This document shows, in pieces, positions 4,284 through 9,828 of a stretch of 64,000 bases of DNA. The notes under the pieces are model-generated. The model had not been told where the DNA came from and searched no databases. It saw only the letters and a program-made list of their open reading frames with translations. How positions within the stretch are numbered: the stretch's first letter is position 1; each line of letters opens with the position of its first letter. The position numbers were made by a program, and so were the translations under genes. The DNA is taken from assembly GCF_014170375.1 (NCBI RefSeq), contig NZ_LZZW01000011.1, forward strand, positions 1-64,000, read 5' to 3'. Source of the DNA: Variovorax sp. UMC13 (lineage in GTDB: Bacteria > Pseudomonadota > Gammaproteobacteria > Burkholderiales > Burkholderiaceae_C).

Positions 4284-4562
4284 ATGACACGCTCTCTCAA
4301 GAAGGGTCCTTTCGTCGACCACCATCTGGTGGCCAAGGCCGACAAGGCTGTGACGACCAAGGACAAGAAGCCGATCAAGACCTGGTCGCGTCGCTCGATG
4401 GTCCTGCCCGAGTTCATCGGCCTGACCATTGCCGTGCACAACGGCAAGCAGCACGTGCCTGTGTACATCACCGATCAGATGGTCGGCCACAAGCTCGGCG
4501 AATTTGCGCTCACCCGCACGTTCAAGGGGCACCCCGCGGACAAAAAAGTCCAGAAGAAGTAA
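4284..4562 (+). CDS. rpsS: 30S ribosomal protein S19
   Basis: S19 is in the 30S head, next to S13, and contacts the A-site tRNA. The 92-residue product begins [15 protein letters not shown] and carries the conserved [16 protein letters not shown] and [12 protein letters not shown] segments. It follows rplB by 11 bp with an AAGGGGAT ribosome-binding site and is the normal length. Confidence 0.98.
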
Positions 4563-4571
4563 GGAACGACC

Positions 4572-4904
4572 ATGTCTGAAACACGTGCAGTCCTCCGCGG
4601 TGTCCGCCTGTCGGTCGACAAGGGCCGTCTGGTCGCGGACCTCATCCGCGGCAAGAAGGTCGATCAAGCGCTCAACGTTCTGCAATTCACGCAGAAGAAG
4701 GCCGCTGTGATCATCAAGAAGGTGCTCGAGTCGGCCATCGCCAACGCCGAGCACAACGACGGTGCCGACATCGACGAACTGAAGGTCAAGACCATCTACG
4801 TCGAACAAGGCGCCACGCTCAAGCGCTTCACCGCGCGCGCCAAGGGCCGCGGCAACCGCATCAGCAAGCCCACGTGCCATGTGTACGTGACGGTTGGCAA
4901 CTAA
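4572..4904 (+). CDS. rplV: 50S ribosomal protein L22
   Basis: L22 binds all six 23S rRNA domains and its hairpin lines the exit tunnel. The 110-residue product has [18 protein letters not shown] at the N-terminus and the tunnel hairpin around residues 83-100 ([14 protein letters not shown]). It starts 9 bp after rpsS behind AAGGAACGACC and is followed 14 bp later by rpsC. Confidence 0.98.
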
Positions 4905-7466: not shown

Positions 7467-7490
7467 AAGGCGCCACGAGGCGCCTTTTTT
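7467..7490 (+). terminator. Intrinsic terminator after the peroxiredoxin gene
   Basis: AAGGCGCC (7467-7474), loop ACGA, GGCGCCTT (7479-7486) and a T-run to 7490. It lies 22 bp after the peroxiredoxin stop and before repeat array A. Confidence 0.88.
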
Positions 7491-7497
7491 CATGCCA

Positions 7498-7661
7498 GAG
7501 ACACCGCGGAACCGGCTTTGCCGGGCCGCTGGTGTCGCCCCCTCGAGGGGGAAGGCGAAGCGACACGCAGTGCGCGAGCATTCGGGGGTGGGCCAGGGAC
7601 TGCCCCCCTTGAGGGGGAGGGCGAAGCGACACGCAGTGCGCGAGCCTTCGGGGGTGGGTCA
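7498..7661 (-). repeat. Dispersed repeat array A (one full, one partial unit)
   Basis: Read on the minus strand, the array begins exactly with the TGA stop of the acetyltransferase and continues CCCACCCCCGAAGG. The first unit (about 7602-7661) lacks the distal part. The second (about 7498-7594) is complete, with a CCCCCTCGAGGGGG palindrome and the CGGCCCGGCAAAGCCGG hairpin. The same unit appears in opposite orientation at 9571-9767. I do not recognise a named family, and no transposase gene is present. Confidence 0.85.
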
Positions 7662-8249
7662 GAGCTCGACTTTCAGGTAGTGCGAGCCCGGGATCGGGTT
7701 GTGATAGTAGGGTGGCACCTCGACGAAGCCCAGGTCCTCGTAGAGCGTGCGCGCCGACTCCATGTCGTCGAGCGTGTCCAGCAGCACGCAGGCGTAGCCC
7801 GCGGTGCGTGCCGCATCGAGGATGGCTTCGGCCAGCCGCCGGCCCAGTCCCAGGCCGCGAAAGCCGGGGCGCACGTAGAGCCGCTTCATCTCGGCCGCGT
7901 TGGGGTCGTCGGCGCTGTCGAGCGGCCGCAGCGCGCAGCAGCCGGCCACCACCGCCTGCCGGCCATCGGCCAGGCGCAGCATCGTTGGACGGTGCTCGGG
8001 GGCCGCGGGAATGTCGGTGGCCGCTACCAGCGCCAGCAGCAGCGCGCCGCGCGGCTCGGCGTAGTCGCCGGGCAGAGCCGCGAGTTCCTCGGCGAAATTC
8101 TGGAAGCTCAGGTCGATGCCCAGGCCGCCGGCGTACTCGGTGAACACGGCGCGCAGGGCGTCGAGTTCGTCCGCTGCGTGCGGCGTGATCAGCACGATGT
8201 CGGGCGTGCCGATCAGCGGCAGCGTGCGCGAGGCGGGGAAGGTGCTCAT
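7659..8249 (-). CDS. GNAT-family N-acetyltransferase
   Basis: This is a predicted acetyl-CoA-dependent acetyltransferase of unknown substrate. Its 196 residues contain the GNAT motif A region EMKRLYVRPGFRGLGLGRRL (acetyl-CoA pyrophosphate loop, R-G-x-G-x-G-R type) near residues 122-141, then a motif B region ending LYEDLGFVEVPPYYHNP. I start at MSTFPASRT, whose ATG overlaps the stop of the upstream cytochrome b561 gene (ATGA), implying cotranslation. The frame is open much further upstream, but that is the shadow of the cytochrome genes. The stop codon is the first triplet of a dispersed repeat. Confidence 0.9.
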   Translation of the reverse strand: MSTFPASRTLPLIGTPDIVLITPHAADELDALRAVFTEYAGGLGIDLSFQNFAEELAALPGDYAEPRGALLLALVAATDIPAAPEHRPTMLRLADGRQAVVAGCCALRPLDSADDPNAAEMKRLYVRPGFRGLGLGRRLAEAILDAARTAGYACVLLDTLDDMESARTLYEDLGFVEVPPYYHNPIPGSHYLKVEL

Positions 8250-8953
8250 GAGCGCAAGGTTCCGATCCAGAGCGCGAAGCCGACGCAGGCCGCGAACAGC
8301 ACCAGGGCCAACAGACGCGATGCGGCATCGTCCCGGCTGGGTTGCGCGGCGGTGGACGCGGGCGCCACGAGGGTCTTGTCGCCCGAGATCATCGGGCCGA
8401 CCAGGCGGTGCCGCCGCACCAGCGCGTAATAGAGCACCGCCAGCAGGTGCAGCACCAGCAGCGCGATCACCAGCCATTTGCCGCGCTCCGCGTGCCAGCC
8501 GGTGGCCAGGCTGGCGGTGGCGCCCGACACCAGGTGCGACAGCGGGCCCACGTTGGAAATCTCGTCGTCGGCCAGCAGGCCGGTGCCGACCTGCAGCGCC
8601 AGCAGCCCCAGCATCGCGAAGACCGACAGCGCGCCCAGCGGGTTGTGGCCGATCAGGTGGTCCGGATGGGCGTCGCCGCGCAGGTAGGCGACGACCGAGC
8701 GCGGCCGGTAGAGGAAGGCCGCGAAGCGCGACCAGCGCCCGCCGACGAAGCCCCAGAGCAGCCGGAACAGCAGCAGCGCCAGCACCAGGTAGCCGAGCCT
8801 GAAGTGCCATTCCATGGCGCCGAGGAAGCCGGTAGCGAGCAGGCCGCCGACGCCCAGCGCCAGCAGCCAGTGGAAGGCCCGCGTCGGCAGGTCCCAGATG
8901 CGTGTGCGCGTCGGGCGTACCTCGTCGATGGTCTGGGACGGAGAAGGAGTCAT
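8246..8953 (-). CDS. Cytochrome b561-type membrane protein
   Basis: This is a small membrane di-haem cytochrome b that probably moves electrons between the quinone pool and a periplasmic carrier. The 235-residue protein starts MTPSPSQTIDEVRPTRTRIWDLPTR and has the TRAFHWLLALGV haem-ligand helix, further helices with histidines (GHNPLGALSVFAML; LHLLAVLYYALVRRHRLV) and a final C-terminal helix. It diverges from the cytochrome c' gene at 9115, a natural redox partner, and overlaps the acetyltransferase by four bases. An earlier in-frame start at 9001 is possible but lacks signal features. Confidence 0.88.
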   Translation of the reverse strand: MTPSPSQTIDEVRPTRTRIWDLPTRAFHWLLALGVGGLLATGFLGAMEWHFRLGYLVLALLLFRLLWGFVGGRWSRFAAFLYRPRSVVAYLRGDAHPDHLIGHNPLGALSVFAMLGLLALQVGTGLLADDEISNVGPLSHLVSGATASLATGWHAERGKWLVIALLVLHLLAVLYYALVRRHRLVGPMISGDKTLVAPASTAAQPSRDDAASRLLALVLFAACVGFALWIGTLRS

Positions 8954-9114
8954 CGGGCGGACAAAGAGGGCCGAAAAGGGGCGGGAGGCGCAGATTAGCA
9001 AATCTCGGCGGCCGCGGCCGGAAGCCCCATGTCGCGCCTGCGCCTTCGCGGCCCTCTAAACTGTTCGCCGGTGCCGCAGGCGCGGCGCCGATCCCCCACG
9101 AAATAAGGAAGCCC

Positions 9115-9573
9115 ATGATTCGTCTTGCCAGCCTTGCGCTGGCTGCGGCAGTTGTTGTCGCAGCCGTGCTGCCCGTCCATGCCCAGCCCCAGAAGTTCGA
9201 CAAGCCCGAGGACGCCATCAAGTTCCGCCAGGCCACGCTCAAGGAGATGCAGCAGAACTTCAAGCGGGTCGCCGACATGGCCTCGGGCCGCGACGACTTC
9301 AATGCCAAGGTGGCCGACGAGAGCGCGCAGCGCGTGGCCGAGCTGATCAAGCAGCCCTGGGTGGCCTTCGGTCCCGGGACCGAAGGCGGCAAGGCCAAGC
9401 CGGAGGTCTGGACCGAGCAGGCGAAGTTCAAGGACCTGGCCGGCAAGGCCGAGGGCGAGATGGTCAAGCTGGCGGCCGCGGCCAAGACCGGCAACCTCGA
9501 TGCCATCAAGGCCTCGATCGGCGCGGCGGGCGCGACCTGCAAGGCGTGCCACGACAGCTTCAGAGCACGCTGA
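9115..9573 (+). CDS. Cytochrome c' (periplasmic)
   Basis: A class II cytochrome c, 152 residues, whose haem site CKACH lies at the C-terminus as usual for cytochrome c'. These four-helix-bundle proteins bind NO or CO and give nitrosative stress resistance in other bacteria. The N-terminus is a clear Sec signal (MIRLASLALAAAVVVAAVLPVHA). AAGGAAG precedes the ATG. It diverges from the b561 gene, a common pairing. The stop TGA is the first triplet of repeat array B. Confidence 0.92.
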   Translation: MIRLASLALAAAVVVAAVLPVHAQPQKFDKPEDAIKFRQATLKEMQQNFKRVADMASGRDDFNAKVADESAQRVAELIKQPWVAFGPGTEGGKAKPEVWTEQAKFKDLAGKAEGEMVKLAAAAKTGNLDAIKASIGAAGATCKACHDSFRAR

Positions 9574-9767
9574 CCCACCCCCGAAGGCTTCGCGGCACTT
9601 CGTGTCCGCTTGCCCTCCCCCTCAAGGGGGCGACACCGACGGCCCGGCAAAGCCGGTTCCGTGGTGTCTCTGGCCCACCCCCGAATGCTCGCGCACTGCG
9701 TGTCGCTTCGCCTTCCCCCTCAAGGGGGCGATACCAGCGGCCCGGCAGAGCCGGTTCCGCGGTATCC
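9571..9767 (+). repeat. Dispersed repeat array B (two full tandem units)
   Basis: Two units of about 97-99 bp (9571-9669 and 9671-9767), each running from CCCACCCCCGAA through a CCCCCTCAAGGGGG palindrome to the CGGCCCGGCA-x-AGCCGG hairpin. The first unit starts at the TGA of the cytochrome c' gene. The array is in inverted orientation to array A at 7498-7661, so the two flank the acetyltransferase-b561-cytochrome c' block. Confidence 0.88.
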
Positions 9768-9781
9768 CAGGAACAGAAAAG

Positions 9782-9810
9782 AAAAAGGCACCTTGCGGTG
9801 CCTTTTTCTT
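9782..9810. terminator. Bidirectional intrinsic terminator
   Basis: AAAAAGGCACC (9782-9792), loop TTGC, GGTGCCTTTTT (9797-9807). It has an A-run on one side and a T-run on the other, so it can stop transcripts from both the cytochrome c' side and the TlpA-like gene on the minus strand. Confidence 0.88.
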
Positions 9811-9828
9811 TGTGCGGTGTCGGGCCGC

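Follow-up and report, generated by a model that had tools for sequence, protein, structure and literature searches.

In the window analysed here, a 64,000-nt stretch of the genome of the soil bacterium Variovorax sp. UMC13, two arrays of a repeat begin at the stop codons of two genes, and the question that this locus raises is what ties such a repeat to the ends of genes. The arrays are inverted, with arms that are 90% complementary, each lies 3′ of its gene, and together they flank three genes, as the preliminary description of this DNA had it; by Pfam these are a GNAT acetyltransferase gene (7659..8249, minus strand, PF00583), a cytochrome b561-type gene between the arrays (8246..8953, minus strand, PF01292) and a cytochrome c′ gene (9115..9573, plus strand, PF01322). 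The two arrays do consist of the same repeat, as claimed, but they are not both built of complete units of about 97 bp. Array A has one full copy with three hairpins (7494..7593, minus strand; covariance model R1, 115.5 bits, and nhmmer) and, directly 3′ of the acetyltransferase stop, a truncated first copy with hairpins 1 and 2 only (about 7604..7658, minus strand; direct repeat D2, tandem period 66), which gives 33.6 bits with nhmmer across 7604–7649 and no separate match to the covariance model. Array B has a first copy at 9573..9674 (plus strand; R1, 105 bits) and a second at 9673..9772 (plus strand; R1, 115.7 bits). An intrinsic-terminator-like hairpin with a T-run, recognised by eye, stands 3′ of it (9782..9811, plus strand) and is conserved in locus L190 and in the repeat-free locus L191, so that array B lies between the stop and the terminator; past the far end of array A there is a similar hairpin and T-run of a peroxiredoxin-like gene (7468..7491, plus strand, by eye). 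The motif CCCACCCCCGAA has four exact matches in the window and six with no more than one mismatch, the mean in shuffled sequence being 0.34.

The preliminary description also took TGA to be the first triplet of the unit. Both adjoining genes do stop with TGA (acetyltransferase 7659..7661, minus strand, by sequence and gene call; cytochrome c′ 9571..9573, plus strand, by sequence), but the triplet is each gene's own stop: TGG takes its place in the second copies of the window, other loci have TAG or TAA, and the cytochrome c′ stop is the same in three relatives without the repeat (L191–L193). TAG and TAA also precede repeats and repeat-free relatives keep the protein end, so TGA does not belong to the unit.

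The unit has three hairpins; by the covariance model most copies are 84–104 nt long, those of a short-hairpin class 84–86 nt. Its left edge is C-rich (CCCACCCCC, GGCTCTCCCCC or CCACCCCC, then GA or AG) and is followed by a variable first hairpin, then by a CCCCC-loop-GGGGG element and a third hairpin with GACACC/GGTGTC or one of its variants as closing stem; the right end is CCTGG or CCACG, in many copies with AA after it. The hairpins keep their pairing while their sequence changes: compensatory changes were seen at 12 of 23 pairs in an alignment made without reference to the structure and at 13 and 11 of 23 in two alignments fitted to the model, in which 99% of the cells are paired and whose covariation score was reached by none of 500 shuffles. 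Taken one by one, the copies fold better than their shuffles to a moderate degree only (z from −1.6 to −3.0). Among the stems of the UMC13 copies, G-U intermediates are as rare as A-C ones (10 each), which fits a constraint on a DNA palindrome better than one on RNA, and in the other species the counts are 22 and 9; as these counts differ by sample, RNA folding and DNA folding are not clearly told apart. Rfam returned sub-threshold matches only, the best at 22.7 bits where the gathering score is 60, and a known RNA family was rejected on this ground.

Across the 7.14-Mb genome the DNA search that came first gave at least 55 matches, and the covariance model, built from 62 copies and applied at E ≤ 0.01, finds 144 copies, a few of the weakest being doubtful; they form 122 arrays, of which 102 are single, 18 double and 2 triple. 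The preference for stop codons that the preliminary description had proposed to check genome-wide is borne out: with genes called by a home-made codon model, the first copy starts no more than 8 nt from the stop of a co-directional gene in 104 of the 122 arrays, at offsets from about −6 to +8 nt and with all three stops in use. After single matches below 70 bits are dropped, 94 of 106 arrays are anchored in this way; two of the 12 strong arrays that are not follow another copy or a truncated one, and array A of the window is scored as a miss, since the model does not pick up its truncated first copy. Eleven of the 18 unanchored arrays have upstream of them only a gene of opposite orientation, four are on the same strand but farther away or with more overlap, two lie partly within a called gene and one has no upstream gene. 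For the 107 arrays with both neighbours, uniform placement within the intergenic spaces they occupy predicts 24.7 within 8 nt or overlapping and 104 are seen, the maximum across 20,000 simulations being 42, and chance placement was thus rejected. The gap has a median of 0 nt upstream and 48 nt downstream. The rule extends beyond the genome, as a similar test anchors 55 of 65 arrays drawn from congeners, from another genus of the same family, from a second family and from 15 additional genera (an array lying at the edge of a locus was left out, and two loci of genome G138 overlap), against 31 of 4338 random positions and none of 756 control positions 40–160 nt beyond the match. The repeat thus stands in sense directly 3′ of the stops of its host genes, whether in a 3′ untranslated region or inside an operon, between two genes. 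A 1512-bp gene (C25:39380-41099, L171) has an antisense copy 16 nt 5′ of its start and a sense copy at its stop.

The stops that precede the repeat are unlike those of other genes. TGA, TAG and TAA stand before 52, 31 and 21 of the 104 anchored arrays and end 359, 52 and 59 of the genes without a repeat, so that TAG is enriched at repeats (31/104 vs 52/470, odds ratio 3.4, p = 5 × 10−6). Eighteen gene ends were also compared in six congeners, which yielded 94 of 108 possible sites; as stop type had guided the choice of the 18 genes, the genome's own alleles were not counted in the comparison of stops, and nine loci of four further genera, all of them lacking the repeat, were also set aside. 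The repeat was present at 11 of these sites and missing from 83, which means that it is not needed there. The filled alleles end in TAA (7), TAG (3) and TGA (1) and the empty ones in TGA (63), TAA (17) and TAG (3), a difference with p = 2.9 × 10−5. In 17 of the 18 genes the protein stops at one and the same position whether or not the repeat is there, and in gene number 6 the last residues vary; where a congener has the repeat, it lies between the stop and the start region of the next gene or the terminator. Orthologous ends without the repeat, in which the preliminary description had seen a possible refutation, thus have their stop at the same place, and the adjacency is neither chance nor gene truncation, the latter being rejected on account of the conserved protein ends. 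The presence of the repeat goes with altered stop codons, and the ends of the proteins are conserved.

Single genes show how far this holds, some of the repeat detections at the first three loci named here being weak (12–22 bits). The TlpA-like gene ends in TAG in four of five alleles with the repeat, and among 59 alleles without a detected one in TGA in 57, in TAG in two and never in TAA; both of these TAG-ending "empty" alleles have, by eye, decayed copies. The acetyltransferase gene has TAG in all five alleles with the repeat and TGA, TAG and TAA in 40, 17 and 4 without it. The HPr gene keeps TGA in 13 of 15 alleles with the repeat, and the shift of the stop is therefore not universal. Related filled alleles of the IMP dehydrogenase gene alternate between TAA and TGA.

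The two arrays of the window also vary between strains. V. boronicumulans Xaverov 112, whose cytochrome c′ is 98% identical to that of the window, has a single full copy 3′ of a TAG as array A and a truncated plus a full copy as array B, so that the copy structure differs at both arrays; in Variovorax sp. N23 array B is missing, and a short spacer leads from the TGA to the same terminator. The first 20 nt of the two arrays of the window (7494–7662 and 9571–9772) are identical, and the first copies of the window's array A and of array B in Xaverov 112 both lack the third hairpin and have a similar junction, GGGGGCAGT..CTGG; the arrays compared with those of the window for a shared junction are L190:2446-2547 and 4454-4622. 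Judged by these identical starts and similar junctions, this looks like an exchange between arrays A and B. At five other loci the same convergent space holds the repeat in sense 3′ of the opposite gene, which is TlpA-like, and not of the cytochrome c′ gene. In Xenophilus-like genomes another C-run-plus-hairpin sequence lies directly 3′ of the cytochrome c′ stop, TGA or TAG (L201, L202, L203, L214 and L225, around 4375–4417).

Structures of more than one kind are found at ptsH, the gene for HPr. Several Variovorax have the present repeat 3′ of it, and several species have it between ptsH and ptsI; six Variovorax loci have a different C-run-plus-hairpins sequence at the HPr stop and four Pseudacidovorax loci a third structured one, and thus several Comamonadaceae place a structured sequence from one of several repeat families 3′ of this gene. 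The different repeat, GTGGCCCCCACGCTCCGCACTGCGTGTCGTCGCTGCCCCCC..., begins 4 nt 3′ of the HPr stop (L224:6410-6480, L228, L230, L235, L244, L245) and was not found in the examined loci of the UMC13 genome. The IMP dehydrogenase gene, a PAPS-reductase-like gene and others are followed by the present repeat in more than one genus.

The repeat was found in all 41 genomes of a genus sample, in 82 of 120 of a family sample and in three of 120 of an order sample, two of these three belonging to the family. Its exact left-edge 16-mer has six matches in the UMC13 genome and none in 30 congeners; as the model finds the repeat in 41 of 41, this may be read as lineage-specific sequence turnover. Nine plasmid records contain a match; of the five examined, two have no gene table, and the tables of the other three give its position: in CP099606.1 the repeat lies about 5 nt 3′ of a TRAP permease CDS, within an operon, in a Diaphorobacter plasmid a partial match lies 13 nt 3′ of a CDS, and in a Methylibium plasmid half a unit lies inside a transposase CDS, contrary to the stop rule. 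A search of a phage collection returned no match to the repeat, and a phage origin was rejected for this reason.

Judged by its description, the repeat is probably the BRE of Hot et al. 2011. The section on BREs in PMC3110155 gives them about 90 bp (75–91 bp at full length), high GC, a mostly intergenic location, a tandem arrangement with variable copy number and an occurrence in Bordetella and Comamonadaceae, with some copies reaching a few bases into the end of an ORF and others lying within coding sequences. The present repeat agrees in size, its 84–104 nt being somewhat longer than the Bordetella range, in its tandem arrangement (20 of 122 arrays with two or three copies, the number differing between strains), in its high GC and mostly intergenic location and in its occurrence in Comamonadaceae, seen here in named records; stop anchoring, hairpins and a change of stop codon do not figure in that section. 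According to the parts of Di Nocera et al. 2013 (PMC3733652) that deal with them, the GTAG- and CGTC-tagged REPs are palindromic and stand on the 3′ sense side, many of them less than 20 bp from the 3′ end of an ORF in P. entomophila and S. wittichii, and the ends of GTAG REPs often supply the TAG stop. The present repeat shares the palindromes, the sense orientation and the closeness to gene 3′ ends, but REPs are shorter, at 20–40 bp there and at 20–50 nt in the wider definition applied here, and are tagged, whereas this unit has about 85–104 nt, three hairpins and no tag, and it uses all three stops. In E. coli, the RepRanger paper (PMC12306157) counts 446 of 4072 REPs with a structure no more than 15 nt from a stop and proposes that such REPs lower the translation of the upstream gene; when the present repeat is folded in silico, its first paired base lies within the same 15 nt in 90 of 104 cases, and the share lying so close is far larger than in E. 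coli (104 of 122 arrays start within 8 nt). Parts of PMC2817692 and PMC8266576 are cited as further literature. A titles-level survey with partial journal coverage brought up no recognised account of stop anchoring for this repeat.

The preliminary description had thought of an element that targets stop codons, one that is tolerated there, or one with a function in the 3′ part of the message; the link to stops stands, and the choice among the three is not settled. We give a probability of about 0.5 to the reading that the repeat is a non-autonomous, palindromic, family-wide element kept as the first RNA structure 3′ of the stop. Its mobility, its retention by position and its role on the message are what we infer. 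Copies would arrive by some process that works on the palindrome in its folded form and would be retained 3′ of stops, where they may harm neither the coding sequence nor the start of the next gene. There the repeat would be the first RNA structure met once translation ends, and it might make the upstream message more stable or influence termination, the way stop-proximal REPs act in E. coli. The ribosome study that the RepRanger paper cites as its ref. 17 is reportedly that of Liang et al. 2015. The tight anchoring, the conserved protein ends, the paired changes and the structures at ptsH count in favour of an element kept for its position, as does the convergent space in which the repeat is in sense to the cytochrome c′ gene in one case and to the TlpA-like gene in another; the equal numbers of G-U and A-C in UMC13, the mostly empty congener sites and the unanchored copies count against it.

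It is possible, though we hold it only tentatively, that the copying machinery itself recognises stops, or the point where translated sequence gives way to untranslated, and changes the stop codon in the course of insertion. Anchoring to a few nucleotides is tighter than tolerance would yield, and the excess of TAG at repeats, the difference between filled and empty congener stops and the TlpA-like alleles would all follow from such targeting. Three stops and a range of offsets, however, rule out a fixed target sequence, common descent of filled alleles can make the events fewer than the alleles, the swapping of TAA and TGA at the filled IMP dehydrogenase alleles means that stops also drift, and the right-hand junctions hold no constant remnant of a stop; survival of the old stop at the right end of the repeat was rejected for want of a constant stop there. 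A little more doubtful is a mobile palindromic element that would be guided to the translated end, or coupled with it, would swap the stop and would close the frame at the same residue. That the repeat is neutral and intergenic, and adjoins stops because insertion is tolerated there, would agree with the antisense or unanchored copies and with the mostly empty congener sites, but it is unlikely, since tolerance alone would not yield the asymmetry between the upstream and downstream gaps and since the uniform-placement null speaks against it.

We consider it equally improbable that the repeat is a REP and owes its mobility to the one REP-type tyrosine transposase that these genomes encode. Such a gene, which the preliminary description had suggested seeking elsewhere, does exist in the UMC13 genome as a single Y1 gene (C14:33224-33919; L189:3225-3920), directly upstream of a gene whose start, by eye, resembles gltB; one match apiece occurs in 38 of 41 congeners, and the protein reaches 68.3 bits against NCBIfam REP_Tyr_transpos, which is below the cut-off of 80. 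The repeat was not found in the 7 kb around this gene, nor in the flanks of any of the 30 family Y1 loci compared, a set that includes other genes of the IS200 type. Among 120 family genomes 61 have both repeat and Y1 match, 21 the repeat only, 27 Y1 only and 11 neither (p = 0.82), and three genomes with at least 34 copies of the repeat have no Y1 match; mobilisation of the REP/RAYT kind was rejected on this lack of association. A tag is likewise missing, with GTAG at the left junction of 7 of 104 arrays, and 2 GTAG and 4 CGTC in the next 14 nt. Least probable of all, and very much so, is a role as a transcription terminator: the hairpins 3′ of genes are strong, but the consensus past the last of them is CCTGGAA..G with no T-run, 82 of 107 arrays are followed by a co-directional gene, which is the same share as for other genes, and array B has a separate terminator-like hairpin 3′ of it.

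REP-like repeats near stops were already known; here nearly the whole of a repeat family follows the rule, and it does so in many genera. The filled and empty natural alleles with differing stops make it testable whether the copies are placed at gene ends or selected there, and the same alleles would allow the effect of a structure directly 3′ of a stop on termination and on the life of the message to be tested. The repeat is therefore a good test case for how such elements may choose their sites at gene ends or act on them.
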